This document shows positions 2,548 to 57,000 of a DNA stretch of 64,000 bases, piece after piece. The position numbers were made by a program, and so were the translations under genes. The stretch comes from Owenia fusiformis. Lineage: Eukaryota > Annelida > Polychaeta > Sabellida > Oweniidae. The stretch lies in NCBI GenBank assembly GCA_903813345.2, contig CAIIXF020000001.1, forward strand, positions 42,687,366 to 42,751,365, in the 5' to 3' direction. The notes below the pieces were generated by a model. The model was not told where the DNA came from and searched no databases. It saw only the letters and a program-made list of their open reading frames with translations. Positions within the stretch are counted from its first letter, which is position 1, and the number at the start of each line of letters is the position of its first letter.

Positions 2548-4117
2548 TATGTAAGAGATATCACATTAGTATAAGATGTCCAATTTTGATACAATTTTAG
2601 CACCATAGAAGTGTAGTAGAAACTAGCCCGTGAAAATTCGAACAAACGAAGGTGGTAAGTAAGAGACGTAATCATGTCTAAAGCTCTGGGGATTTCCCTC
2701 CTCTTCTCTGTCCGCATCCAATGATTTTAAAGCAACAAGATAGATGCGAGATTCGAGCCAGGAAGCATCAATATTCATGTGTAAGCTTCCAGAGAAATGT
2801 TAGTCGTTAGGGCACGTCATCAATCACAATTTTTCAATTGTTTGACGGAGATCTTAAGACTTGGATCAATGATATAATACATAATTCTAATGATGCGCTT
2901 ACTTTGCTGTTTCATTGTTTTCCGAGATATTCATACCTTTTTGTACGAAGTCTTAGGACTAAAAAGGATGTTTTAATGGGCACTTCACTGCCGTGGTAAC
3001 AGAAACCTTTTAGCAATGTCTCGGAGGCTACAATGGAAAATTGAGATGATAAATGGGAGACTTACATCTTGGACGTTTAAGTGGACAGATCGAATCTTTC
3101 CAATTTGCGAGTTAGAAAATTAGCAAATACAATGATCCAAGAATATATTTACACAATACATTCGAAAGAATCACCCAGTCTCGTTTCATCAAACAAACAC
3201 GGTAAATCAAGACAAATATTTTGATATCGACAGAGCTATTTGGTCTCTCAATTTAGTCAAGTCCGAATTATTTTTTCATTTGTCTAACGCTAATTAAGAA
3301 AGGGATAACACGATTTGAGCAACGACATTATTGAGTAAATCCATCTCCCAATGGGCTTGGAATCAAGTCAAGAATTATAGTCATTATACCATTCTTTATA
3401 GCCTTAACAACACACAGTGCATAGCATATCAGACCTACTTTATCATAGACAATTGATTTCCACTCTTTCCTAACCGAAAGTGAGTTCGAATCGCTGATTT
3501 TTGTGTACTTAAGATCAATAATTCTCAAATCGGCAAGGTGTTTTTATTAATTAATGTATATTGTATTGATTATCACATCATAAGCCACTTTCTGTATAGC
3601 GGCAATGGAGGACAGAAATATCCAAGAAGTAACTTAAAGAAGAAAATGGAAATATATCATATACCGATACAGATTCAATCAGCTACTCTAATCCTATAAT
3701 TCCTATATCATCAATAAAATCTTCTCCGTTAATAGCCTCGAGTGGTCAGAAAACTATTATAAAACATGAATGGATATAGATATTAAGGCGAGTGATATAT
3801 TGGTTTGTCTTCATGCTCATTAATATGCTCAATCCTCGCTTCTCGTGCATCTTTTAGCAAGGCAAGGTTCTCAGGGTTTGTCAAATCCGATGGCTTGTTC
3901 TGGGTTATGAACATGTTCATATGATTGTTTGATATTGTTATCGTAATCGCGTTTTTCCTGGTGTTTCCACTCTAGATCCTCGTCTAGTTCCCGATTCATT
4001 ATTATGCATATGTGCTAAGCTTTGTTTTACTTCAAAACAAAGTGTGTAGACAATGGAAGAGATAAATTATATGCTTGTCAATTTTGTATTCTAAGAGGTT
4101 TTATTTTATATCTCCAG
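2548..4117. other. intergenic / 5' flank of the GPCR gene
   Basis: AT-rich DNA with no coding region that I can support. A non-coding first exon of the GPCR must lie here or further left, because the GPCR exon starts at a splice acceptor. The open frame at 3328-3528 (-) has no recognisable domain. Confidence 0.5.
4105..4117 (+). promoter_or_regulatory. splice acceptor before the GPCR coding exon
   Basis: A pyrimidine-rich tract ending TCTCCAG lies eight bases before the ATG at 4126. It implies at least one upstream 5'-UTR exon and decides the start choice. Confidence 0.6.
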
Positions 4118-4125
4118 GTTTCAAC

Positions 4126-5418
4126 ATGGATGAGGGCGAAAAGTTTGATGTAAGCAAGCCTATAGGAATGGAGCTTATGGATAATGCGACCAATATCAAC
4201 ACTTCATCTGGAGGCTCATCTGCAACGCGTGCAGAGTCCGAGGATCAACCTTCCCAGATTGAGATTCACGCCATCATGGCAATGCTGGTGTTTTTCAGTA
4301 TCATTGGTGTTACTGGAAACTCATTGGTCGTCTATGTCTACTCCAGAAAGAGGGATAAACTTACATCTACTATATTCATATTGACACTGGCGATAACTGA
4401 TTTGATGGTCAGCCTTGTAACAATTCCATATACAATTGTCATGGAGTACTTAAGATTTGAAATTGGCGATTTCGATTTTCTCTGCAAACTGTATCATTTT
4501 TTGATAACATGTACAGTACCATTTGCTGCGCTGATCATGGTTGCGATTGCGATCGACCGCTACTTTTGTATTTGTCATCCATTCTTACATGCCATGACTG
4601 CGTTCAGGGCAAAGGTGATCATAATCTGTTTTGCCACACTGGCATGTACCCTCGGTACGTTTACATCGCTGTTTTATGGAGTTTACGAGAAAAAAATCGT
4701 CAACTCAACCATGGTATCGTATGTAAATAGTTCGCAATTGGAAGGCGAATCAACCAGAAACATCTCATCAGCAACATATACTGTTCTTAATAATGCTTTA
4801 TTGACTACCGAAAGTAGCATTAAACAAACGGAAAACATAACATATACGGGGGTTTGTGCGCCCAGTTTTATATTGCTCGACGACTCAGCAAGAAGGGTCT
4901 ACCAGAAGATCAGTGCATCAATATTTCTCATAAGTTTCATCATGGTGGTAGTTTTATATGTAATGATCTACCATTCTGTTCTTGCGAGACGAAGTAAACG
5001 GCTGAAACAGCGTGGAGAGGAGGGTAAATCGATGAATCTCCATGTACCCGATGCTAACTCTGAAGAGACGCAGCTCACCTCTACAAATGGACACCATCTT
5101 CATGCTACAACAAACGGCTCCACGTGTAAGAAAAAGCAATCAAAGGCCGAAAAGATACGTCTAAGAAGAAAGTCAACACTTAAAGACAAGGCAGTTATTG
5201 CCAATCTAAAGACAGCAATAATGTTATTCGTCGTCACCCTTGTATTTATTGTGTTCTTTCTTCCCGCGTGGCTCATCGCGCTGCATATCATCCCATTCAA
5301 TATAATCGTTTTCTACATGTACTTTGCCTACAATGTGGCCAACCCTATTATCTATTCATTTATGAATGTCAACTTCAGAGACGACCTTAAGCTCATATTT
5401 AACTGCAAGAAACGTTGA
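4126..5418 (+). CDS. class A (rhodopsin-like) G protein-coupled receptor
   Basis: A 430-residue seven-helix receptor at the plasma membrane, expected to signal through heterotrimeric G proteins. Landmarks: helix 1 with GN at 64-65; helix 2 LAITD, Asp92 (2.50); Cys120 at the top of helix 3; DRY at 144-146; long second extracellular loop (~187-255) with Cys244 and several N-glycosylation sites (NST, NSS, NIS, NIT); long basic third intracellular loop (~286-356); helix 6 FFLP in place of the usual CWxP; helix 7 NPIIY (406-410); very short tail. The N-terminus has further NxS/T sites and no signal peptide. I chose the ATG at 4126 because a good acceptor (polypyrimidine then AG at 4116-4117) separates it from the upstream in-frame ATG at 4075, which is probably intronic. 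The ligand is unknown. It resembles the peptide/amine-like orphan receptors expanded in lophotrochozoans. Confidence 0.9.
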   Translation: MDEGEKFDVSKPIGMELMDNATNINTSSGGSSATRAESEDQPSQIEIHAIMAMLVFFSIIGVTGNSLVVYVYSRKRDKLTSTIFILTLAITDLMVSLVTIPYTIVMEYLRFEIGDFDFLCKLYHFLITCTVPFAALIMVAIAIDRYFCICHPFLHAMTAFRAKVIIICFATLACTLGTFTSLFYGVYEKKIVNSTMVSYVNSSQLEGESTRNISSATYTVLNNALLTTESSIKQTENITYTGVCAPSFILLDDSARRVYQKISASIFLISFIMVVVLYVMIYHSVLARRSKRLKQRGEEGKSMNLHVPDANSEETQLTSTNGHHLHATTNGSTCKKKQSKAEKIRLRRKSTLKDKAVIANLKTAIMLFVVTLVFIVFFLPAWLIALHIIPFNIIVFYMYFAYNVANPIIYSFMNVNFRDDLKLIFNCKKR

Positions 5419-12289: not shown

Positions 12290-12472
12290 GTATGATCTCT
12301 AAAATGAAGCCCTCTGATTGGTCAGTTCTTGTACTGTACCAATCTGTATTGCTACTGAGATTTTCCCCTCCGTATCAATATTTTCTGTATTGCTACGGAG
12401 ATGATCAATCCCGTACCAATACAGGGTGACAGGTTCATGTGACGTCATCTAAAGGTCAGACGAGTTTCCAAT
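12290..12472 (+). promoter_or_regulatory. putative promoter / 5' leader of the Crypton-like gene
   Basis: It lies directly before the ATG at 12473. It contains a palindromic CRE-type TGACGTCA at 12440-12447 and two copies of a ~40-base repeat beginning CTGTATTGCTAC (about 12344 and 12386). The inverted CCGTACCAATACAGG follows at about 12411-12425. The binding factor is inferred from consensus only. Confidence 0.4.
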
Positions 12473-13511
12473 ATGGCTGAGTGTCGACATGATCAACAAG
12501 TGAAACGTAGGTTTATGGATTTATCTTCAGCAGATATCGAAGAAAAGAGATTAAAATACGTGCCTAAGAATACTTTAGCCAGTAATAAAAAAAGCGGAAA
12601 GTTGTTAGAAGCTTTCGTAACTCACAAAAACCTGTGGAAAGCCGACGTCAACGAGGACAATCATGACTTTTCCAAATTTTCTGCCAAAGAACTTGACACA
12701 ATTCTTGGTGAATTTTACCTATCTGTCAGAAAGGAAGATGGGGACATGTACAAGGTATCAAGCTTAGAAAATCTCCGTAATGGAATTAACCGATTTTTGC
12801 AATCGCCACCATACAATGTGAAATTTGACATTGTGAAGTCATCGGAATTCCAGAACTCCAACAAGTTCTTCAAAAGTGCCGTCCAAGAACTCAAGGCGGA
12901 AGGACTTGGTTCAACCGACCATTTTCCAGATATAACCCAAGAAGATATTGAAAAAATGTATGAAGACATACATATGGATCCAAACAATCCTTGTGGATTA
13001 TACAATAAAGTTCACTTTGAGATTCGACTCTATTTTTGTCGCAGAGGACTTGAGAATATCACTGACATGACAACAGATACTTTTCGTGTTTGTAAGGATG
13101 AAAATGGAATGGAATATGTTATAAAAACTAAAGATGAGTTGACTAAAAATCATCGTGAGAAACAGAAAGAACTAGTTACAGGTATTATGCCAGCTAATGG
13201 TAATGAAAAATGCCCGGTTAAGTCATTTAAGAAATATGTGTCGAAGCTGTCAAAAACCAACGACAAAAATAAGGGACGATTATGGCGATATCCTATAAAA
13301 ACCACCAATTTTGACTTTGACAACCCTGATGAGCATATGAAGTGGTATACTGATAGACCAGTGGGTGTGAATTCCATAAAACAGTTCATGCCAAACATGT
13401 CGAAGATGTGTGAACTCAGCAAAAATTACACTAATCACAGTATAAGAGTTACTGGCTGTACAATATTGAGTAAAACAGGATATAACAATGCACAGATAAT
13501 GTCTGTAACAG
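12473..13511 (+). CDS. Crypton-like gene, exon 1
   Basis: Encodes residues 1-346 plus the first base of Gly347, covering the core-binding region and the catalytic domain up to HxxR. The donor ACAG|GTGAGG follows GTA ACA. Reading through it meets a stop within five codons, which supports splicing here. Confidence 0.85.
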
Positions 13512-15152
13512 GTGAGGAAGCTGCATAATGCTTTTTTAGATATTAGAGGTATTAATTCCTATGTAATACTTCTGAATTTTTTTGTCCTTAGATGTAAATG
13601 TAATTCTTATCATAGTTTAGAGAGATTTCAATCTTAAGACTGCAAACATTTTCGTATGATATAAATTTGATGGTTAACAGAAGTGTGGGTATTTTGTGAG
13701 TGTATGCTACAAGTGGGCGAAGCGAATTAGCTTTGAGCACGGGTCATCTCTTCAAGAAAATTTGAAAATGAGCTTGCATTTGAAACATACTTGGGCATTA
13801 AAGTACAAGATTCTGACTAATATAGATCAATAAAATGTAAATTAGGCCCCCTATTGGCCATTTTTTCAGAATATCCAGTATTTTTAAAGTGTAGAGAAAT
13901 TCAATATAAAAAATTCACTTTTTTTCTAATCTTTGAGAGTACGCCTTGCGTTTGATGCGTACATGACTATGCCATTGGTAAATGTCAATTCTCTGTATTA
14001 AGCAATCATGATTTTGTCTTTCCAGGACACAGAAGTACTGCCAGTCTACCACTGTATCAGAGGGTGTCAGTTGATGAGAAGATCTCCATGGGGAAATCAA
14101 TCAGTGCTGCACTGGGAAGTTGCAAACCAGATACCAACAGCACCATGCAGTTAGACCTATCTTTTGATGACAATGGTAAGTAAATTCATTGGCCCAGCAG
14201 TATTTTGAAATATTACTCACAGTAACTTGAGTTTGACATTTTGGAATGTTTTTTCAATTAGTACAGTAGTCAGTCACAAAGATGAATTGCTTATGACATC
14301 CTGATATTCATAAACCTAATATTTTTTGAAGTGTTCTTTATACTTCCAGACCATTAATTATTGCTATAATTGTATAACATCAGTTTTCATATTTTCTTGC
14401 TTAATGAATATTGATTGTGAGCTAATTTCAATTTGATCAAAGTTTGTATTCCAAAAACTTCTTTTGGTTGTTTTCAGATCTAACAGATGTACTTCAACTA
14501 CAAGGAGCCTCATCTGATGAGCCATTTACAACAATTGATCAGCAAGTAGCCAAGACTAGTACACTGGATCAAGGATACTCTAACTTTGACCTGGATTCAG
14601 TGTTACAAGGTAATGTGTATTGAGTGACGAGATTTAACACAGATAGCCTAATGTCAGAACATTTATTCTTAGAAGCGTTTGATATTAAACAGAAACAACA
14701 ACAGTTTTCTAATCAAGGAAATGTGTTGAAAACCTCTTTAATTTTCCTATTCTAGCCTATGATTTAAGCTAATGAATGAATATACAATGAACAATACAAT
14801 AAATCATTCGATTCAATGTAGTAGACATTGAAACATAGGATTTGCTGGTGAATATTGTTTTTTCAAAATCATCTTGTTTTAATGACCCAACATAGTGATT
14901 TGCTGTATTCCAGAGCCTTTTAATGACACAGATGACTTCCTGTTGTCCCAAACATCGACAAAGATTGCCACAGTAACAACTACAGTACATGGAACAAAGT
15001 CTCCCAAGTTACCTCCACTTGCTGCTGAGACAAAGTCACCTAAACAGATTATCTCTGATCGAAGGTCCCCGAAAGTACCTCTTGGATCTGTTGGATCAGG
15101 ACTTTTCAATAACTGTAACATTCAAAACTTGAATGTATATTGGAAGAATTAA
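12473..15152 (+). CDS. Crypton-type tyrosine recombinase (DUF3504) family gene, four exons
   Basis: Spliced protein of 519 residues. The N-terminal half (~66-150) is a helical core-binding-like domain with the FYLSVRKEDGDMY...SLENLRNGINRFL pattern. The catalytic-like domain (~155-365) has the first arginine in YFCRRGLEN (Arg190/191), HSIR at 322-325, TGHRS at 346-350 and the nucleophile candidate Tyr357 in LYQR. These match the R, HxxR, H/W and Y set of tyrosine recombinases seen in Crypton transposons and host genes derived from them. Residues ~366-519 are acidic and low-complexity, ending in an FNNCNIQNLNV segment. Introns have proper GT/AG ends with all junctions in phase 1. There is no GCR1 or other recognised DNA-binding domain and no flanking element ends, so a domesticated nuclear DNA-binding or regulatory protein is the likely interpretation. 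A still-mobile Crypton is the alternative. Confidence 0.85.
14026..14175 (+). CDS. Crypton-like gene, exon 2
   Basis: Acceptor TTTCCAG|GA and donor AATG|GTAAGT. It completes the TGHRS box and supplies the candidate catalytic tyrosine (LPLYQRVS). It continues into a Ser/Lys-rich linker ending LDLSFDDN. Confidence 0.85.
14478..14609 (+). CDS. Crypton-like gene, exon 3
   Basis: Acceptor TTTTCAG|AT and donor CAAG|GTAATG, with phase 1 at both ends. Encodes an acidic stretch (DLTDVLQLQGASSDEP and following) of low complexity and no recognised domain. Confidence 0.75.
14914..15152 (+). CDS. Crypton-like gene, terminal exon
   Basis: Acceptor TATTCCAG|AG. Encodes 79 codons including the TAA at 15150-15152. 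The Thr/Lys/Pro-rich tail carries two TKSPK motifs and ends FNNCNIQNLNVYWKN. Confidence 0.75.
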
Positions 15153-30100: not shown

Positions 30101-31437
30101 AACGTTTATAACTTATATAGGAGAAAATATATGTTATAATACAGTTTTTTAGCTATGTCAATTCCAAATAGTTCTAAAAAGGCCCCATGTAAAGTTCAAA
30201 AATTTGTTTCTTCATCCAGATACTATCAAAATAAAAATAGTATAAAACAAAGCAATATTATGTGTGGCCTATCTTAGTCAAAACGAAATAAAAATAGAAT
30301 AAAACAAAGCAATATTATGTGTGGCCTATCTTAGTCAAAACGAAATAAAAATAGAATAAAACAAAGCAATATTATGTGTGGCCTATCTTAGTCAAAATGA
30401 TGTTTTCAAATCGTCAAAGTTGCAAATTGTCTGAATCATTATGGCCCCCTGTAAAGAATGAGATAACTATTACAAAAAGCAAACAAATTATATTTTCTGT
30501 ACTGTCATAGAAAATCAAATTGATGGTCAAAATTAGCAGATTGACTTTGTATTTTCAAACTCTCTTACTTCATTGAATTATCACAGCTGATTATAATAAT
30601 AGCCACAAGTGAAGAAACTTGCATTTCCCTGGGAATTAGCAGTCTACAGAGAGAAGGCAGCTGTTCTACTGCACTGGATAAAATGTTCATTTTTATTTCA
30701 TCTATAATCACAACATTAAAATAAGAATTGGTACTATGATCATATAGAGTCAATTCATCATTTCGCAGAAAGACAATGCATTTGGATGACTGCAATTTTT
30801 AAGTAGGATTTTTGCTAAGAACCATTCCATTTTAATCAATAGGTGTGAAGTACACATACCAGTATATGGATAGAAAGGAAGCCTCAACACAACTTAGTTT
30901 ATATCTATCACAAATTCATTTTCAAAAATGACTGTTAGTTCTGCACCAAGTGCTCATGCTATCTGCACCGAGTTTCTTTTGTGGATCCATTCTGCATAGG
31001 GTGTTTATATCAGAACTCCCTCATTAATCATAAAAATAATCAATTACCACTTAAGATAAAAATGTCAGTTAAAAAATGATTATAACATTTATTCTGTATA
31101 AAAATGACTGAGCTGAAGATAATTTGGTATAAATACAAAATACAACATCCTCTTGTTCTGTTAATCAAAAGAACTCATTCATTTCTGTCAGACATTTATA
31201 ACAATATAAATTCTAAGGAATATATATTTAACACAAATTGACAGTGTACAATCATTATTTCCTGATAAGTTTAGAAAATGTTTTATAAATGTATAAAATA
31301 TTGTAGAAACAAACCTACCAACGCCTGGTAAATACAAAATGAAAAATATAGTTTGACAGTATATGACGCTAAATTTTAATTCATAAGATGCAAAATCATT
31401 TAGTTAACTACATGTATATACTAAATACAGTAAAACC
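27191..31437. other. no gene recognised; 3' side of PLEKHM2
   Basis: Long AT-rich stretch holding the 57-bp triplicate at 30228-30398. Open frames (27260-27466, 27517-27837, 28477-28674, 30565-30795) show no recognisable domain. Confidence 0.45.
30228..30398. repeat. 57-bp tandem repeat, three near-identical copies
   Basis: Copies at 30228-30284, 30285-30341 and 30342-30398 each contain ACAAAGCAATATTATGTGTG and end TAGTCAAAA. Only one to three differences separate copies, so the expansion is recent or homogenised. Confidence 0.95.
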
Positions 31438-32909: not shown

Positions 32910-33029
32910 CTAAAATGTCTTAAGAGCTTGTGCAATATCACCATAGATGAGTTGTCGTATTTGTTTGACTTGTTCCCGACACTGTTTCTGCACTGAGATA
33001 TCACACAGTTGAGTTACAGGCACTGCAAC
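32910..33029 (-). CDS. PLEKHM2: PLEKHM2 terminal exon
   Basis: Acceptor TATTCTTTCAG|GTT, 39 codons and TAG at 32912-32910. VAVPVTQLCD through IAQALKTF aligns with the helical end of the vertebrate protein (VDLPHTAIQE...) but stops about 15 residues sooner. Confidence 0.85.
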   Translation of the reverse strand, partial: VAVPVTQLCDISVQKQCREQVKQIRQLIYGDIAQALKTF

Positions 33030-36000
33030 CTGAAAGAATAACCACAAATAATCTCATAATTCATGGAATGAGTCGAAGATCAAGAGCAAAATTGCATCAA
33101 CAGTTCTATTAATAGCGAAGCATGTTAATTTTGGTTAATTTTTATTTTGTTTAAATTATCATGTGTAAAACCATGGGCTTTCAACTCATGGTAAAGCCCA
33201 TGGTAAAACTGTCAATAATTTCACCATTTGATGATGTATAATATATCGTTTTTGAAAGACTGAAAAAAACTAGCAAGATCAGTTTGATCATATGATATTT
33301 GTGTATTCTCATCATTTAAATATGTCTGACTTCCCTTGAAGTTGCATAGGTAGCTAATGCCAAACATATAATAGTAAACAAACAAAAAATGCATGATCTC
33401 TATTAAGCTAGACCTAGTTGATCTTGAGTCATTGGTTCTGGTTGATGAAAAATATCAATTTCACTTTTTAATTGAGATACAATATTGCTAATCTTCAGTA
33501 TTCAGTATTGCAATTCAGGTCTATATTTCACAGTGCATATGGCATGTTCTCTGTATTATATTCTGAATGTGCATATATGTAATCTGTCAAATGCACAGTA
33601 TTATATTAAAAGGGATGGTCTAAATATGTTACACTCTCTAGTCTCAAGGTCATCCTTTCCTACCACATTCACAAATTCTTTTAATGCTGAAACTTGATTA
33701 TAACCTCAAATGTTAGTCCAGCAAGGTATCATTGTTTGAATGAACCCTCATGTAATATGTTTTAACATAACAGTGTACATCTAAATATCCGGAGTAATAT
33801 TGTAATGCTTTTTTATGGATAATTAGATCAGATCTCATACTAATACTTTCTAAGGGGTCTGGCATGGTCTGTAGTTTGTTAATGTTGCCCTTTGATCTCT
33901 ATCCTTAGGGTGAATAGATTATAAAGTGCAATGAGTTGGATTCAATGATAGAATCAAAGCATGAAATGATTCCCAATGATTTTAAACAATACATTTTGAC
34001 CTCCTTTCTAATTATACCCTGCTTGCAGAGTCTAGTTAAACTACACGAAGACGAAGCTCTCTTTTAATGAATGCAAGGGGTATTCTAATTAGTGAAAGCA
34101 GTTGAAAAATATCTTAGATTCCTGCCATTTAACACAGCATTCCAGCATGTTGCATTGAGATAATGTATCATGCATCCATAAAACATAAACAAAATAAAAA
34201 ATCAAATATTTCTTTGCATTAAAAACATATTAATATTGTAATTTTATGTATAAGGCAACATACTAAAATGGCAGCCATTTTGAAACCAGATTCCGAAATT
34301 AATTCATGAACAGAGCAGAAGGGCATATAAGCATAACATATAAACAATATCGGACAAAGGGTATTTGAATTATTGCCTGGACAGATGAACATGTGATGAA
34401 CATGTGGATTGACATGTGGATGGGCACATGTACAGATGGATGGATCAAGGCACTCGCGGTATCTCTCAAATTTTGCTGGATGTGATAATTATAATATAGT
34501 TATTGCTTATTATTCTGAAATATGAATGCATGACCCTTTACTTTGTTCCATTTATTGGCTTCATGTATCAGGTGACATTCATTAAGATTGGCTTTGTTGG
34601 ATAACTTGGTAAATGTAAATGTTCAATATTACTAACAAGATTACTCAGTACTCAAATACAGCCACAGACGACCTAAATATCAAAAATCAACCTATATCAG
34701 GTATACAAAGCGAAATGCACACCTTTAATTGAAACCAGTTCAATCTGCCTTGAAAGCTATATTTGGTAAATGAAACATAGAAGAGCATTTAATGAGACAA
34801 CAGTTGATGAGCAAAGCCGGGTGGCAAAGCCCAGACTAATGTTCAAATCAATTGATCCGCACACAGTTTCCTGTCACATGTTTCCTAAAGCAAGAAATCT
34901 AAATTATACAAATCATCACTGACGGATTGAAAGCTTTAAAGAGCTTCAACAACCAGATTTATATCTATTTATAGAAAAGATTCTAATGCGGGAGAATTTA
35001 GATTTGATGCATTTAAGCAAATCGAAGTTATTACTTAAAATGACACCTCAGATGAAGTTGACTTTAGATTCTCGGGTAGCCATGACAACCATCGACACTA
35101 TCAATGTGAATGTCACAAGATTTATGAATATGTAACCGCAAGCCTAACTCTTTGAATAATAGCTTATTCATTAGTTCACTTAACAATGTACAATGTATTT
35201 CAAGGTACAAAATGTAATTCTTCGAACTCTTAAATTTTCTCGTTTTAAAGCAATTTTACCTCATTGGAACTCAAACAAAAATATCATAAACCATGAAAAC
35301 CAAAAACCTAATAAAAAAAGATTGTCTGATAAACAGTATGTGGTAAAAGTAAAAAGGTAAATCTGAATATAACTTTATTCACTGTAATGAGTGACACTGT
35401 ACCTCAAATACAATTATGTCACATTGTCCCAAGAGCAGTGAGATATGATTAAAACAAATTCTTGATTTGAGCAGAGTGAACACTTTTTCTTTGATCAACT
35501 GATTTTAAGTATTATCCAAATGGCAAACATCCATATCATCTGTGGCAATCGCGTCACTCATTTCAATCATGCTTACAATTACTCGAAAGTCACTTTGACG
35601 AGCTTAACTCGCAGACACTTAGCAATATGACATTATTCAAATTCAAAAACACCCTGAAGAATTTGTATCTTATTACATAACACATGACTGCTTTTAATAA
35701 GAACAGTAAAGCAATCTCTACGGGAGACTGCAGAGATAACAACCCATAATGTAAAATCACAGAAACTGAGCAACATAGATGCCTGAAGACATCCATATAC
35801 TAAAGGGATAATTATGTTTAATAACCTATATGGAATATATGATGGATGGACAGCTGTCATATTTATTGATATAGGTGCCATAAATCCCAGAGAGTATCAG
35901 GTTACTTTATCATTTATTAATATGTTCCATGACGTTAATCTAATGTGATAAATGCATTCATGTTCGTGTTTTACTACTCTTTATTCATTTTCATTATGAT

Positions 36001-39000
36001 TTGAGTTGGATATTGTATTATTTTCTCATTTAAAACAATAGGACTATATTCAGTAGGCTGGGTTATTATATAGAGAAACATTTTGTAACGATTGTCAAAC
36101 TGTGAAATACAGTGTATCTGAGGGATAAGTATATCTTAAAGGAATTGTATGCGATAAAAATGACAAAATATTGCTTCTGGAACAAGATCAAATGACTTTT
36201 ACATATTCTTTACCCTACCTATTTTGTAATTTAACAATCAACACAAGTTTACATACAAGGAATTCATAAAAATATTTTTTGATCGATAAAATTGTGGATT
36301 ATAAAACCGGAAATCATAAATCATAAAATCTTGGTCTTAATTCCTTAAATATAACGCCCATGTATCTCAGGAACTATCAGAAACGCTGTGTCTTGTTTTC
36401 AAAGTGATCACAGTGCAAGGTATCTGAGAATGCACTGTGCTTTGAGATTCTGTGTCCATATATCTGGGAATGTACCATGCCTTGGAATACTGTACCCATT
36501 CAAATGCTGTGCCCATGTACCTAATCATGTACTATACTATAAAATGCTGTGCCTATATATCTATTATCTAAGCATATAATGTGCTCTGAAATGCCGTTCC
36601 TATGTATCTAAGCATGAACTGTTGCTGGAAATGCATCTCAGCCTGTACTTTAGTTGAAAATGCTGCGCCTATGTATCTAAACATGAACTGTACCTTGAAG
36701 AGATGTTCCTATGTATCTAAGGATGTAATATTCTTTGAAATGCTTTACTCACGTTTCTGAGATTGTACTTTGAAACAATGTGCCTCTGTATGTATGCAAA
36801 GGGTATGTAAGCATGTACTGTACTCTGAAATGCTCTGCCTATGTATCCAAGTATTTAAGTTTGTGCAATACTTTGAAGTGCTGTTCCCATGTATTTGAAA
36901 TACATTACATAGAAATAATGTGCCCATGTTTCGAAGCATGTACAGTGCTTTGAAATAATGTGCCAATACATATTAGCATGTACTGCTTTTTGAAATGAGA
37001 TCATGTATCTATTCATATACAGTACCTTAAAATGCTCTGCCCATGTCTCTGAAAGGGTCTGAGTAAATCTGTTTCTTTCTTCCTGACAGTTGAAGTAAAC
37101 AACCCACTGTTCTTTACTCACGGAGCTATCGCTAGATTCAAAATCCTGAAAACAGACAACAAAGTTTTTCTAAAATAATATATTTGAATTGATTCTAATA
37201 TTAAAATAGGAAGGTATGACTGTTGGATTAAAGACAGGACACTTTTGTTTTGAAAATGATGTATCATGGCATCACCATCTTCTGCTATCCCCACAGTTCA
37301 TTCAACAATATCATTACCTTGTTCTATGGTTAATTCATTCGCTTAATATTCACCTACGTAGTTATCAAAAGGATCAAAATGAGATATTATGATAAACAAT
37401 GTGAAAAACAATGTCCTATTTATCAGAATTTGACAAACTATCAGCACACACAACACTTCCTCACATCATCAATCTCGCTTACCTTTAGATAAATAAACGT
37501 TTGTTTTCATTGATATCGCATGATATTTAGTGTTTTTCATAATATTTGTTTGGCGGCGAATGACCTTTTGAGTAAGGATATATCATGAGGAGTAGCATGA
37601 CGAGTGATATCAATTTCATCTATAAATGATGGTATATTGTACATTACTTTTGTCCTTTAATTGTAAGACGTGCTCTACAAAACGTCATAACTATCTTCTT
37701 ATCATTCATCAACACCTATTAATGTATCTATTCGTGTACATGCTATGAAACCCTTTGCCATTGTTATTAATGCATGTGACAATGGAGGCACATGCGGCCT
37801 GTCATGTATTACTATGTGTACAGAATTCGGATCGATTTCATAACAACAGATTACAGAAAATAGTAAAACAATAATAATGACATTTTCAATGTTGTTGTCG
37901 ATCAAGGTCATAGTCAAATATCGAGTTGGAACCCTGGGAACCAATCCTCCTTGTGGATCGACTGATAATATTTCCTTTTACTGGACATATTTGTATCAGA
38001 CACACAAGGGAAAATTGATCCTCTTACACTGATGAATATTCAAGTTTAAGGGAACTTCCTACTATATCTGTCATGTGATCTGACCCGAATTAGCCATCTG
38101 TTGGGGAAACTGTTAACTACCAACTGACATCTAGGTTTAAAAATATCATCTGGCAAGATTAACTTGAAAGGTTAACTTGAAAAGGTTGTCTTGACCGCCT
38201 TATTTCAAAGGAACAATACTTGACAGGCTTGACAGTTTAAGACCAAACACGGTTCACTTAATAATGTTAACTTAAGAAGGTTACTGTGTTCTGTGTTATT
38301 CAGATTGCCCAACAGGACAGTTTAATTAATTATATTTAAGCCCCCTGCACACCTTAATGTCATAAAAACCATGACAGATCATGGCAATGTAGATTTACTA
38401 CCAGCCCATACATCATAATTCTTATTTAAAAATGATGTAATTAGTTTTACCTTAAGCCGACGTTTGAAGACAAATTAGGGTGACCCCCCAGTGCTCTTTA
38501 TCCCACATGGAGAAAGCAGTGAACATATTACTAATTTGGATGAGTCAAAATTGTGTAAACTGGAGAGAGGAAATTACAAGCTGTAAAGGAGACACGTGAA
38601 GGCTGTGATTGATGCCTTCTATATATGGAAGTGTCTTAGTGTATCCGTGAGTGTAAAGTGTTACTAGATAATAAATTTTTGATATGCACGATTGGTTATA
38701 AAATGTTCATTCAACTTGGAGCAATGATTTAAGGGTGCAATTTCTAAACTATATGTTAGGTATTCTATTTTCTTTGTTGGTGATTCAGATTCGGGGACTT
38801 TATACTTCACAATTTGGCAAACAAACCATCGAGTAGCACAGGGAAATCATTTATTTTACATTGAGTCAATTACCATGAATCAATGTCAAGGGGTATTGTA
38901 CTACATATATTAGTGTCATGTTCCTCATCTGATGCATTCCAGCATGTCCTATGATGCTATTTAAGGTCAATGTGATCTTCAAAGTGATTTAGATAGAGAC

Positions 39001-42000
39001 TTCCTAATACTCTTTGGCTCATCAACATTGTCTTTTACAGGGGAATGAGCAAGAGAGTGGCAGAATAATTTACAATTTACGGTAAAGTGTGAGTTTGACG
39101 AACCCTAAATGATCTTAAGCATCACAGGCTTAAGTATAAAAATGTCAGTATAACACAACTAATGAATTCTATCGTCTTGATACACATTGTACAAAATTGA
39201 ATGTTGAAAAGTTTTAATATAAATCTGAATTTTGATATAACGTAGGTATAAATACCATAATCCAACACAAAATGAGACCATTACGACAAATAATTTTATC
39301 AACTATGAAATTCTTATATGAGGGGTGATCAATAAGTATAAATGAACGCTTTTTTACACAAATGTTTTTTATAGATCAATCTCTTTGATTTTTTTCCAGT
39401 GATACATTATTCAATTACCTATCAACTCTGATGATTTGAAGACAAAATATGTAATATATCTTTATTTCTTTGAATATAGGTACCCTGGAAGCGGCATCAT
39501 ATCACACATTCTGAAGCTATTTTATCTCATTTAACATGCAATGCAGTTAAATGCAGGTTGAACGAAACAAAGCATGATGGTAATTAATTTCACCATTTCA
39601 ATATGCAATAATTGATTTGGGATATTTTGTAATCACTATGTGCCATTCATGCCACCTTCATTCTACAGGGCTCTCTACATAGGTTCCATCAAGTCCTACA
39701 CACTTCCTCATCGTCCTCTTAACCCAAGATTGAAAGACATGGCAGAGTTCATTTTCTGACATGGTAGCAAGCTGCAGTTACACAGCTTGCTTTACTTCAT
39801 CAAACCTGTCACTGAACCTGCATCCTTTCTCTATAGAAATAAGTAGTATAGAAATAAATAAGTCATAAATAAATAAGTAGGTGTCAAACATTTTGCAGAG
39901 TTATATGGAACCTCACACTATAATCATGTGAAAACCCACAAGGCATCTACATAACAAATGTGACCATCTGGTTACACATAATTAGTCAAAAATGCGTAAC
40001 AATTTGTTACAGACTCTGATTGTCTAGTGCCATTCAGCAAACACTTGAATTGAAAAAACACTTGAATTGAATGTTGACCAATGACCATCAGTAACAAAAT
40101 GTGGAGCCTTTAACAAATAACAACAATATGGTACGACTTAATAGGTTGGAGACTTCAGAAGAGTTTCCCGTAGGTGACCATTATAACATTTTACCCTGTA
40201 TCTCATTAACGGTTAGCATCCAAGCCTAGTGCAACATACCACAGTGTTCGGGAGACTTGCCTAGCCTGCTATAACAAACTTGCCATGGGCTGTCCGCCGA
40301 ATTTTTGAGATAAATTCACCAAGGTCAAAATCACTCCACTGCTAACTTAAAATAAGATTTCCAACTCGACTTTGACATGTTTTTAGCTAAATTAGGACCT
40401 ACTGTATGAATATTGAGCCCCAATTCACTTATCAAACACCAGATGGCGCTCTGATGAGGTAGGGAAGGAAAAAAATGACTTTTTGTACAGAAAAACAAAT
40501 CACTAACGATAACTGCTAGTATCCTTACACAGGACTATATTCTTAATGGTAACATAATGGATCAGTACATGCTGTTGGGCTAGATGAGTATTTCCTGTAT
40601 TGACTATCTGAACAATCAATGGACAGTGAGGAGTGAACGACCCCTCCATCCCCCCACCTTCCCTCTTGACCAGGCTGGGATGAAGTAAGGGGGTGTGTAG
40701 CACTCTAACGTATGCCTAGGAATTAACTTACGAGTATGACATATGTAGCTGCACCCGTATCCTGGAGTAGCTGAGAGACATCTGTGACATCAGCACTTCC
40801 TAAGGTACGGAAGAAGTGGGTCTGAGGGTCTTCATGACACATCAAGATCTTAGAATTGGTTAATACCAGACAACATGCCATACACTCATTGTTTTTCTTC
40901 TCAATCTGGAACATACATACATACATATAGTTGGTCAAGACAATACAAAATGTCATACACACATTTATGAAACTTTATGTGGGGTCATTGTGTACTTGTG
41001 ATGCTACATATTTGAATAAATAACCTTATAATTTATATTTTATATGGTTTTTGATGCGTTTTCTCAATGATAACATGCACAAAAATTGAATAATAATACA
41101 TTTGTGGTAAACCTTTGTCTCATCTTACTGACATGTATAGTAATCCCCAAACTAAATTAGAATTAGTTATCTAATATCAGGGCTGAACAATTTTTTTTTA
41201 TTAATAGACATAATACAAGAAAATACACCATAATTGATATTTGTCAAAGTGATCAAAATCTCCAGATGCTGAAATATGGACTATAAATACCAAAGGTAAT
41301 TTCCATATCTACATAGGAGACTAATGAATCAAAAATAATTTTCCTGGAACTATGTAGTATATGGCAGGAAACAATCTTGAAGGAAATCTATGCAGCCAAT
41401 TCCCACAACCACCTGTGTATGATCTTTTGGTTTTAGTCCTGTATGATTTATTTTAAGCTCTATATATGATTTAACACTGTGTGAAAAAATCTACTAATGA
41501 TGCTGATCTGTCATGTTGTTTCAGATACATTTTTAGGGCCGCCTTTCTAATACACACTGTACATATTACAAAAAATGGCACAATTCTGTGGGCTCCTGTG
41601 GTGACAAAACATAGACAGACAAACAGATGCATGGATGAATGGAAAGATGGACAGACAGATGGATGGACAGACAGACATATCAAGTGAGCAATCCCATAGA
41701 CACACCATGAGAGCCAATAATGAGCGTACATTAATTAACCTTAAGAGGTTTGAAAAACATTTATGCTTGTTACTATTCAAGACATCTGTACTATTATAAA
41801 ATATTCATTCAATAAGTAACCTAAACCAGATCTGTTCAAAAACTATGAAATGAACGTCATTATGTACAGAAATAAGCCAAGAGGGATGGGAAAGGAATTA
41901 ATATTTCAGTTATGATAAATTGGTTTAATTTTCAATGCATTCAAGGTGCTCAAGAGTACATCCTGTTGTTTCTCAATGGAATCATATCTTACTTGATGTA

Positions 42001-45000: not shown

Positions 45001-48000
45001 ATATAAGATAGCTGTACAATTTCAAGTGTGTAAATTGAATGCTTTTGAAGTTATGACCAAAAAGAGGTGAAAAAATGGCAGCCAATATTTTAACTTTGTC
45101 AATGATTTGAAGTAGAGGATTACAAATGAGCCACAAATGTGTTGACAGACAGACGGACAGAAAGACACAGAAAGACACGGACAGATAGCTTGTAACATAC
45201 ACCGGACAGACACAGACAGATGTATTGTAACATACAGACAGACAGACAGACAAGTGGGTGATTACAATAGCTCATCCATGTGAGCTAATAAAAAATAATG
45301 CAAATATGACACTTATATGACACTTGATATGACACTTTATCAGGAACTGTCACAAAATTACACCCAACACACTTCATTTTTAACAAAACCATTTGTTAAT
45401 GGAATGATTATCAAAAAAATGACGCAAATATGATGCATATATGACTTCTAATCAAGGTATTGTCAACAAATTACACCCAACACACTTCATTTTTTACAAA
45501 ATCATTTGTTAATAGAATGATTATCATAAAAATGACATAAATATGACACGTATATGACAGATAAGGTAGTGTCACTCTTCTTAGCATCAAATATTCTGAT
45601 ATGATAAAAAATTCCGCTATCAATTTCATATTAGCATATTGTTGAGACACTTTTAGCTCTTCAATCAAAATTTATTCTACTTTGGAAAAATGACTTTGAC
45701 AAATTATATGTAATTATTGGTAATTTTTCATAGGAATTGGAAATTAATACTAAATGATACCATTATATCTGCATTGAATCTGATCGTATCCCACTGAACA
45801 TTAATTGCTTTTGAGTTTATGAAAACCAAAATAGATCCCACCACATGAACAAGCTCGTGTTTACCATTTAATTATCGTTAATGTTTACACTGTAGATTAT
45901 CAAAGGGGTTTGGTGCTTAAGTTGCTCTTGTATTAAGGCAATAAATTGCGTTTTGAAAAGTAGAATGTCTGCATGCAATGGCATAAAATGACCCCCCCCC
46001 TCCAATATCCACCTTCATATCAATCGCAACTTACATGTTTTTGTGCAACAGCCTGACATAGGTTCATTAGCCACTGCTGTATATCGTCACCATTGGCTGC
46101 TGCAAGTACGAGAATGTTCCCATTGGACAGAATCACTTCAAACGAATGATCACGATCTGACTGTGTACTTCTCCTGCATCCTAGGCATTCTTCACCTCTA
46201 CAATATGGATTTACATTAACATGAACAATGTACAACAATATATCTGTGGTTGTGTAATCGAGATATATATATTTATATCTATTTACGAGATTGCAGAGTA
46301 CTGAATAAAATATCTCGAAAAATGTCCATCATTTAATATTTTTGTATTTTTTACATCATGTATGTATGCAATTAATAATGTTCATTTTAATGCCAAACTT
46401 GAATGACCAATGTTACATTATACATTATATTATAGTTGAGTTATGGCTGCTATATTAACGTGGACTATTGTAAAATGTTGGCAACTACAGATATACATTT
46501 CTATAATAATTAAGCAATTTTATAAAGCAATTGTCATCCATAGTGGTTGTAATTTTGGGAACTGTTCTTTGAATGTTATGTCATGGTATGGGATATTTGG
46601 GCTTGTTTTTAGTTGTACTTTTCAATGTTACTTTTTGTACCTGTGTAAATGTGTTTAGTCTTTTACCCTTACGTCCTGTGCCTAGATATTCATTCTTCGA
46701 ATGAGAAAAGTAAAGCGTAGAGATGGGCAATAACTTGAAAATGAATGTGTCATTTAGAACTGCCTCACTAAAATGTTCACATTTAGGCCTATGCGCTAAT
46801 ATATATTTATAGGGTTATTCACATTTAGAGCTTTTTGTTTTACGTCCTTTTCATTCGGTCAATATAACAAAGTATGAATCAATACATGATTTAAGTAAAC
46901 AAAAACTAATTCTTTTAAGTGGCACAAATGACTAGGAGGACATTATTTATGATCAGACTGCACCTTTAGACAATATGATTGAATCTAGAAATAAAATAAT
47001 AACGTATCTGTTAATATCTCACTTTGGTAAATGGATTTAAGTAGGCTTTTATCATAGAAGTGAGGCCTCAGATAACAAAGTTATTACCTCAGATTTCCTT
47101 AGTGCCAATTATTGGCAGCACAAGAAGCGGAAAAATAAAATAACTCATTCCAAGCCCTTTGATCCTCGTAATTAACAATGGTCCTGTTCATCATATTCAA
47201 CACACTTTCATGTATCAAATTTCCTTTTATTGGTCCCAACTTACGATAAAATGACATCATGAGCATGTTTCAAATACAAATAAATAGAAAGATGGGTAAT
47301 TTATGATGAATAAATGCAAAGTATTAATTAATATCAGGAGACTACAGTCTGCAACAATAGCTCCTGTCTTGGAGGGATGCTCTTTAACTATGATCTACAT
47401 CAATAATCTGCAAAATGCTGATAAACCCATTTTAAGCAGATATGTAGTTTAAAAGTGATAGAATTTGAATAGAAACTTATGCCATCAAGTGACCAATGCC
47501 ATTAAGCAAGAAGCCCAAGGTATGCACTGTGACTAGGGTGGTTCTGAAAATGTTAACAATTTAGAGTTTAATGGTACAACTGGTAAATCACTATGATGAT
47601 AATAATGTATTAATAATTATGGGGGAGGGGATATATGGATAATATATGATAACAGGTGCTGTGAATGCCCTCATTATGAGCAAGGGGTTTGTAGTCACTG
47701 GTATGTTTTCCAGCTAATCCAAAAAAATCTTTGGACATATCTAGATTGTAGGGAACTAGTGTGAAACAGCCTGACCACTTTGTGGCACGATGCCTTCTCC
47801 AAATGATTTGGCTTATTTTTCCAGGTCAAAATGGAGATAATAATAGAGAAATGGATGCAGTTGTAGAACATTCCAAAAATGACTTCCATGACCCACCCCG
47901 AGTCCTTGTTCAAACTTATGACTCACCCCAAATGTACAGCTAATATTGGAGACTGGGTGCTGTTTGCATCTGTATATTGGAATAAAGTCCCATTTCTGGA

Positions 48001-54000: not shown

Positions 54001-57000
54001 TATAAAATTGGTCATCGAACGTGCCAAATACTACAGGTCATATTTGCGAAATCTCCCCCCCCCCTGATGAGCCATTGAGTATGTTGACACTTTTTAATTA
54101 AACCACACTCATTTATTTTGTTAGGAGTGTCTCATCAGGTTGCACATAATCTATTGTTAATTACTTAACTGTCCACCTTAACATTCTAACGTGTAATGTT
54201 ATAGTTCCAATGTAATTCCCTGGTAAAGAATGATTGATATACACACCTTAATTCAAAGTACCCTGGCTTCCACTTGGATTTGTTAGCTATAAAAGAGTTG
54301 GCCTGCACAGTTTTGTGTAGTAGTATTCCTGAATGGTTGGATGTATTATATCTTTCTGGCTGCAGGTCCTGCCAATGGACTAGACTATAGCTCTTCAAAG
54401 ACACCTCATTCAACTGCAAATAATAAAATATAAGGTTATTCACTTGGTGGGATTGGATATAGGTTTATTCTCTGGGATAATATTCTAATATCTCCTAATT
54501 AAACTGAAAACATTACTATTCATATGTATAGTAAACTAACTATCAACAATAGAACTATTTCAACATAAGTACTAATAACAATTTACTAATTACATTTACT
54601 AATCTACTTAGAGGGGCTAGATATGGGTTATATTCTCAGGGACAAGATATTTCCCGAGGACCCAACATACTACAGGGACTGTTCAGTAGCATAGCCATGC
54701 TGTAACATAATATACAATTCTCCTGCAGCCTCCTTGCATCTGACCTGGTATTTGTCAAAAACAAATGTCCACCTAAGCAACCATGCATTATCACTTCAAA
54801 AGTCAGATGGTAAGTTTTCTGTTTCCACAAATTAAAATACAAATATGCAAAATCATTATTTCTTAACTTACAGTTCCCCAAAATGAAATTAATCACATTT
54901 GAATTTTTGGCACAATGCTTTTGAAAATGATCTATGTGGTAATTCGGGATAATTAAAACGGGTGCTTGAAATCAAAAATTAGCGTAGGAAATGTTCTGTG
55001 CTGCGCTCCTCAAATCGCTTATGACACGTGACTTTGTCAAAGATTCTTAAATCACATTGAACATATTTTCATTTTGTACTCAGTGTAAGTTGAGTTTCAT
55101 TGCATAGAACAAAGTTATAACGCATTACTCTTCAATAATCAAAAAGGAAATTGATTCAGTTAGCTGACTTATATAGATTAAAAAATTGTTTACCAAGTAA
55201 TTTTTCCTTTTTCCTGTTATGAGCGGATATTAAATATGGTAAGATGTAAGCTAATAAGCCAGACCTTGTGGTTTAAGTGCATATGCTTCAGGACCTTCAT
55301 GTTTACATACTTTGAATGAGGTAAAAAATGACAATAGCTTTTTTTAATATCAGGTATGTAGAAAAACTGACACTCGAGGGGATCATTTATCCAACCACCA
55401 ACATCTTAGGTCAGTAGAGACGTGATCCAATTCCATTTATCACATCTGTGAGAATATTCTGCAGTTACTATATATACAAATACCTCTTACTTAAATAGAT
55501 TCTACTACATTATTCGTAAAAGTTTCCTCACACCACCCAGAAAAATCTGACCCATATTTTCTTGAAAAGTAAGCTTTTCAAGATTCTTCATCAAAATATA
55601 ACAATAATTTTCTAGAAACTGGCAATGTTTTTCTTATATTTTAAGCAAATGCACATACAGTAAAACCTGTAGAGTGGAACACCTCTGTAAGCGGAACACC
55701 TCCATAAGTAGAACACTTTTCAAAGACCCATAACCTATTGACTTATTGTTAAATGAACCTCTCTAGGTGGAACACCTCCCAAATGAAACACTTTTTAGAG
55801 GAACTGAAGGTGTTCAACATAGACAGCTTTTACTGTATTAGGCAATGTTTGTAAAGCAGAATTGGCTATTTTGAGATCCCTTGGAAGTTTTGGTTAGCCT
55901 GTTCATTAAGGCTGGCTGAGGGCATGTACATTTAAAGTATATAATTGGAAATAAATTGTACAGAGATTAAATGAAATATATTCAATTATCAATGTCTGTC
56001 AACTGAATTAATATAAGAAGTTAATCCAAATAGAACGAGGTCTTACCTCTGTTTTTATACAAGGACAGAATAATGTTTTCTGTGACTTAGCGATAAGATA
56101 TAACAAATGAACAATTATTAGCTCATGGCTTCATATCAACTGTTCCTGCCAAAATGCATTGATTAAAAACAAGAATATCGCCTTTCAGGTAAAACATATG
56201 ACAAGACTGAGTGAAAAGCTGACTAATCCAGTATCTTATAAATGTTGTCCATAAGGGAATATTAAAGATAATGGCCCTTAAAGTGGATATCGGGAAATGA
56301 AGGATATCACGAAAGGATTTTGTAAGTCTTTTATGTACTGTCCCCCTCTACTAACACACATTACCTGAGAATAATTAATTCAGAAAGATTTCCAATTTCT
56401 GTGATAAATTTCTGAGTGACCTTGTTTGAGCCAAGATCGCAGAGGAATTAATCTGAGGAAGTGGCCACAAATTGACTTTGAATGTATATCTGCACCGACC
56501 AACTTTATTATAAATTCTATGGAGGATTCATGATATCTAGGTTTACTGTGTTCATCAGAATGGATTCTTTGAGCAGAATCTTTATTGGTTGTCAAGCTTT
56601 AAAATACTGCATTATGTAACTCATATATAAGACATTAATGATGGTCAAACATTTCTCTCAAACAGGGACTGGGTTGCACAGGTTTTTAGAAAATTGTTAT
56701 TTGTTTTAGATGTCAATATTACCATGTGATTGCATCTCAGGTATTTTGAATAAAACATAAAGCTAAGATTTCCCTCAGTCTAGCTGTACTATTCTATGTT
56801 ATATTACCCATTCAGTATCTGCATTTTTTTCATTTTTTATATTTTTACAGATTTTTTATGAAACTTTCAGCATATGTTCCATATACATATATCTTGAGTA
56901 TACATCAATATAAATATAATATAATCTTATAAGGAAGTGAACTTTTGGTTGCCATGGCAACAGCGAGACTTGGTTCCATGGAGCACCTTAAAAATTCAAT

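Follow-up and report, generated by a model that had tools for sequence, protein, structure and literature searches.

The 3′ edge of a coding exon in a PLEKHM2-like gene of Owenia fusiformis belongs to a degenerate ~40-bp tandem array in the adjoining intron, and the repeat unit straddles one splice site, with coding bases on one side and intron bases on the other; this membership was strongly supported. The best explanation, to which we assign a probability of roughly three in four, is that an old PLEKHM2 exon had its 3′ edge tandemly duplicated and multiplied into the intron, where the copies decayed. The locus would then let one read how the edge of a coding exon, donor included, was amplified into the adjoining intron of a gene whose model is still open, with a hint of which array copy was the source, and it bears on intron growth, splice-site evolution, and the growth of repeats at coding edges. 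The sequence examined was a 64,000-nt window of contig CAIIXF020000001.1 (42,687,366 to 42,751,365), and positions below are numbered within that window.

The PLEKHM2-like gene spans part of the window on the minus strand, and its exon structure was read from the sequence alone, with splice sites placed by eye. The PH exon, ending near 46035 (-), matched the PLEKHM2 chains 3cxb_B (E = 1.1e-10) and 3hw2_B (E = 1.8e-10), the best two of four PDB sequences matched. This match covers only the PH exon near 46 kb, and the same search without that exon returned one unrelated chain and no PLEKHM2. By these matches the predicted PH domain is most similar to that of PLEKHM2 among PDB sequences, and the joined exons matched PF00169 (8.6e-8). 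Matches to PF22607, PF09451, PF24587, and PF16139 all fell below cut-off and were taken as noise. Most of human PLEKHM2-FS, searched by tblastn against the window, gave nothing at E <= 1, and the 5′ end of the gene may lie outside the window. An ORF at 54189-54464 (-) containing GILLHKTVQANSFIANKSKWKPGYFELR probably encodes the N-terminal half of the PLEKHM2 PH domain. The putative exons further along are a phase-0 exon at 40905..40732 (-), the array-bearing exon at 37145..37026 (-; 40 codons, DFESSDSS...LSETWAEHFK, phase 0 at both ends by sequence and translation), and a likely last coding exon at 33029..32910 (-; VAVPVTQLCD...ALKTF and a stop, phase 0). The array-bearing exon ends in LSETWAEHFK, followed by the donor AAG/GTACTG at 37025 (-), where the slash marks the exon boundary. 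Donors at 46034 and 40731 (-) are GTAAGT, and the GTACTG at the array is weak. On this exon reading the array likely sits in the last intron, with the likely acceptor ending at 33030, and not in the last-but-one intron where the earlier note had placed it.

The array runs along the minus strand from 37050 to 36426, with a 40-bp minus-strand consensus of AGATACATAGGCACAGCATTTCAAAGTACAGTACATGCTT. The unit register was first picked via a by-eye consensus from the array, and the exon was left out only afterwards. Several same-strand tandem copies are present: weight matrix and nhmmer results aligned 13 intron units within 36426..37010, starting (-) at 37010, 36973, 36933, 36896, 36848, 36793, 36758, 36718, 36678, 36609, 36562, 36522, and 36465. 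The unit at 37010 was weak (nhmmer E = 0.4), and all recognised units share the same orientation. A possible decayed end reaches 36339 (36339..36425, minus strand), with nhmmer traces at 36392..36379 (E = 6.6) and 36367..36356 (E = 2.5) that were not significant. TRF gave no row for the array, even at a score of 30. The exon-edge unit occupies 37050..37011 (-), a correction to the span of about 37019-37057 previously proposed, and consists of 25 exonic bases (the ETWAEHFK codons) and 15 intron bases that include the donor GTACTG.

Membership of the exon edge was evaluated with a weight matrix built from 12 ungapped intron units, leaving the exon unit out, and with nhmmer seeded by the same 12. 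The exon-edge unit scored 39.7 bits under the matrix, a value reached at 0/126320 positions outside 36300-37100, where the best score was 10.3 bits. The 25 exonic bases alone scored 27.2 bits, which was reached at 8/127952 window positions on both strands, namely the exon edge itself and seven array units used in the matrix. No dinucleotide shuffle of the exon reached that score (0/5000). With nhmmer, 18 minus-strand segments were found in 36339-37050 at E <= 10. Fourteen of these had E < 0.01: the 12 seeds, the exon unit (37049..37013, E = 1.8e-6), and one new unit (36499..36468, E = 0.0061). The best match outside the array within the window had E = 0.11. That the exon end looks like an adjoining minisatellite by chance would fit the modest nhmmer value for the exon stripped of its intron bases (E = 0.016), but we regard it as exceedingly improbable and rejected it on the matrix and nhmmer results, all the more as the exon unit adjoins the array close to the 40-base register.

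The homology has a sharp upstream limit at the ETWAEHFK codons, and the repeat unit is therefore about 25 exonic and 15 intronic bases. The nhmmer alignment opens with the first base of these codons (base 97 of the 120-base exon), and upstream of 37050 the exon and the unit shared 3/10 and 8/30 identities in register. The 95 upstream bases aligned locally to the array no better than shuffles (P = 0.16), while for the whole exon only 1/2000 shuffles aligned as well. For two other exon edges of the gene, the best downstream copies within 3 kb had 24/40 and 20/40 identities, versus 29/40 here.

Direction had been left open between an exon edge amplified into the intron and an intronic satellite that supplied the exon end; a test on the Trp of the exon tail favored the former and disfavored the latter. 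The best score for PF25625, the C-terminal PH domain of Nischarin, was 20.7 bits, over a join of 194 residues; its curated cut-off is 27, and we used it as a putative distant relative and not as a family assignment. In different constructs, positions 2-40 of the profile aligned with the PH and middle exons and positions 117-147 with the array-bearing exon, keeping the same order. We scored altered copies of the exon tail against this profile. The intact 100-residue construct reached 18.1 bits with the tail as its best stretch. Changing the Trp to Gly, Phe, or Leu gave 12.3, 13.2, and 12.4 bits, and shifting it by one place gave 12.5 and 14.1 bits; in all five cases the best stretch was no longer on the tail. 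When the Trp was swapped with Ser, PF25625 was no longer listed. The tail match survived Gly at each of five neighboring positions (17.6 bits for E, 17.1 for T, 17.9 for A, 16.8 for the second E, and 18.0 for the F of HF), and an array-like tail, DTWAQHFK, scored 17.6 bits. Leu to Gly just upstream of the array part lost the tail match (13.1 bits) and Phe to Gly further up kept it (15.6 bits). Replacing the tail with Gly left 11.6 bits, a construct ending before SETW was not listed at E <= 1, and W to G in the 194-residue construct lowered the score from 20.7 to 15.2 bits.

The exon tail does not match PF25625 alone and needs the neighboring exon, since the family was listed neither for a construct of just this exon and the last one (E <= 1) nor for a 45-residue tail piece (E <= 10). 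The exon alone was modelled as a helix at residues 11-38, its last ten with a mean pLDDT of 94, in a model made without an alignment that also turned an expected strand into helix. The predicted exon Trp aligns, below the cut-off, with a position kept by the Nischarin C-terminal PH family. Because this separate family keeps a Trp where the exon has ETW, the exon end is probably older than the array and would later have been amplified into the intron. We infer that the exon copy was the source, as its Trp would lie in the last helix of the PH-like domain and is the one kept by the separate family.

The opposite order has an intronic satellite arising first and its adjoining unit being captured, when a mutation made AAG/GT and the exon gained ETWAEHFK. 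It would suit an exon unit that is no closer to the array than the units are to each other (66% identity to the intron units, versus a mean of 63% among the 13) and a majority unit, AAA/GTACAG, that is one step from AAG/GTAC. We consider this order unlikely: the captured Trp would happen to fall where the Nischarin PH family keeps one, without the captured piece the helix would end early, the exon frame of the majority unit is broken by a TAG stop, and nhmmer detected no unit copies elsewhere in the window. Changes at donor position -1 are needed in either direction because most intron units have A there and the exon has G. If the exon edge was the source, as we favor, a short tandem duplication across the donor would have copied the last 25 exon bases (ETWAEHFK) with the first 15 intron bases, and slippage or unequal exchange would then have multiplied the 40-bp unit into the intron. 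The upstream-most donor presumably stayed in use with its codons under selection, while downstream copies would have lost most of their donors as well as the frame (TGG to TAG in the middle group). Today the array most likely only lengthens the intron.

In the exon register, the TGG position was a stop in 7/13 intron units (5 TAG, 2 TGA) and open in the other 6/13, which include ETWAHYFY (36933) and NTWEQHFK (36896). TGG itself was kept at the Trp place in 4/13 units, two near each end, with the five TAG units between. Decayed frames had been said to read ETWA(E/H), which applies to a single in-frame unit, that at 36933. The exon frame continues open into the array for 56 codons before a stop (36855..37025, minus strand), and 3.1% of 20000 random minus-strand starts were open as long. 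A tree of the 14 units was nearly star-like (12.6% internal length, support 23 to 78), with the exon unit as the second-shortest tip (0.10). Identity to the exon unit showed no age gradient with position along the array (Spearman -0.15, P = 0.62). The exon end and first units did not stand out in RNA folding (z = -1.47; 18/200 shuffles as good). In a search for relatives, pattern matches numbered 2 in viral contigs and 20 in prokaryotic contigs, none of which was confirmed.

GTAC words were about six-fold enriched in the array, with 12 in 36340-37050 including the real donor versus 2.8 per kb elsewhere in the window; several were the second GTAC of the same unit. GT occurred in the donor register in 6/13 intron units, and GTAC in the exact register in 3/13, or 5/13 allowing small shifts. 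The earlier note's "some 16 donor-like copies" was therefore too many. Scored with a donor table, donor-like sites per kb in the array versus the whole minus strand were 15.1/19.5, 7.6/10.8, 3.0/5.4, and 1.5/2.1 at four thresholds. The real donor at 37025 (-) scored 4.14 with this table. Two array sites scored higher, and both come after an in-frame stop: AAC/GTGAGT at 36752 (-; 7.61), outside the unit register, and AAG/GTACAG at 36693 (36688..36696, minus strand; 4.95), which is the only register-equivalent site above the real donor and is out of frame with stops before it. Within the 56-codon open stretch, the phase-0 GT sites at 36983 and 36908 scored -0.12 and 0.71.

The proposed retained donors and in-frame extensions are both weakly supported: the GTAC words are enriched but donor-like sites by score are not, stops stand at the TGG place in 7/13 intron units, and the phase-0 scores are low. 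It is improbable that the array is kept for splicing, with spare donors behind a weak real donor that buffer or vary the exon end. The low score of the real donor beside the two higher sites, the GTAC enrichment, and the open read-through (P = 0.03) would fit such a role, but at each of the four thresholds donor-like sites were sparser in the array than along the minus strand as a whole, and both stronger sites lie past the stop. Use of array donors in splicing is argued against by these scores, and we hold it very doubtful that some units still splice to yield PLEKHM2 forms whose C-termini are lengthened or truncated and shift with copy number.

The anatomy of the array is not unprecedented. 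Two sources on human CBS describe a 31-bp VNTR, c.1444_1467+7(16_21), with 24 exonic and 7 intronic bases across a donor in 16 to 21 copies (PMC2630376), placed at exon 13-intron 13 (PMC1395315). CBS units differ from each other by single bases and keep a constant length of 31 bp, and their number varies between people. Like the CBS repeat, the PLEKHM2-like array has a unit that spans coding and intron bases across the donor. Unlike it, the Owenia unit is about 40 bp (25 + 15), has 63% mean identity, and lies in another gene. Given that identity versus the single-base differences in CBS, the array is much older, and it shares the CBS anatomy in a more decayed state. Alternative splicing was reportedly described in a 2001 CBS paper by Lievers. 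The Owenia locus would show a possible fate of CBS-like exon-boundary repeats, in which decay of the additional donors leaves an intron of ordinary appearance.

Intron gain by tandem duplication has been described for ATP2A1, fission yeast introns with 24-bp exonic repeats, and potato RdRp (PMC4974935). Those cases resemble this one in that part of an exon, splice signal included, has been copied in tandem and now lies within an intron. They differ in outcome: a new intron forms there, whereas here an intron with a distant acceptor was apparently lengthened at its donor side. An intron bounded by duplicated GT and AG was rejected for this locus, as the likely acceptor at 33030, read by eye, is >3 kb beyond the array. 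Ordinary intronic minisatellites share the unit size, the same-strand tandem arrangement, and the decay, but in them the coding exon edge is not itself a unit. No title returned from the literature searched, which was mostly outside subscription papers, describes this locus.

The window also held a second, shorter array at 30229-30397, beyond the likely last exon of the gene, in which a 57-bp AT-rich unit occurs three times at 99% identity; it is young, in contrast with the old ~40-bp PLEKHM2 array. A single-exon rhodopsin-family receptor ORF occurred at 4066-5415 (+; PF00001, 3.5e-28). DUF3504-type domains derive from Crypton-type transposons, and a 361-aa ORF at 12443-13525 (+) matched DUF3504 (3.4e-8) along with a sub-threshold match to QRICH1.
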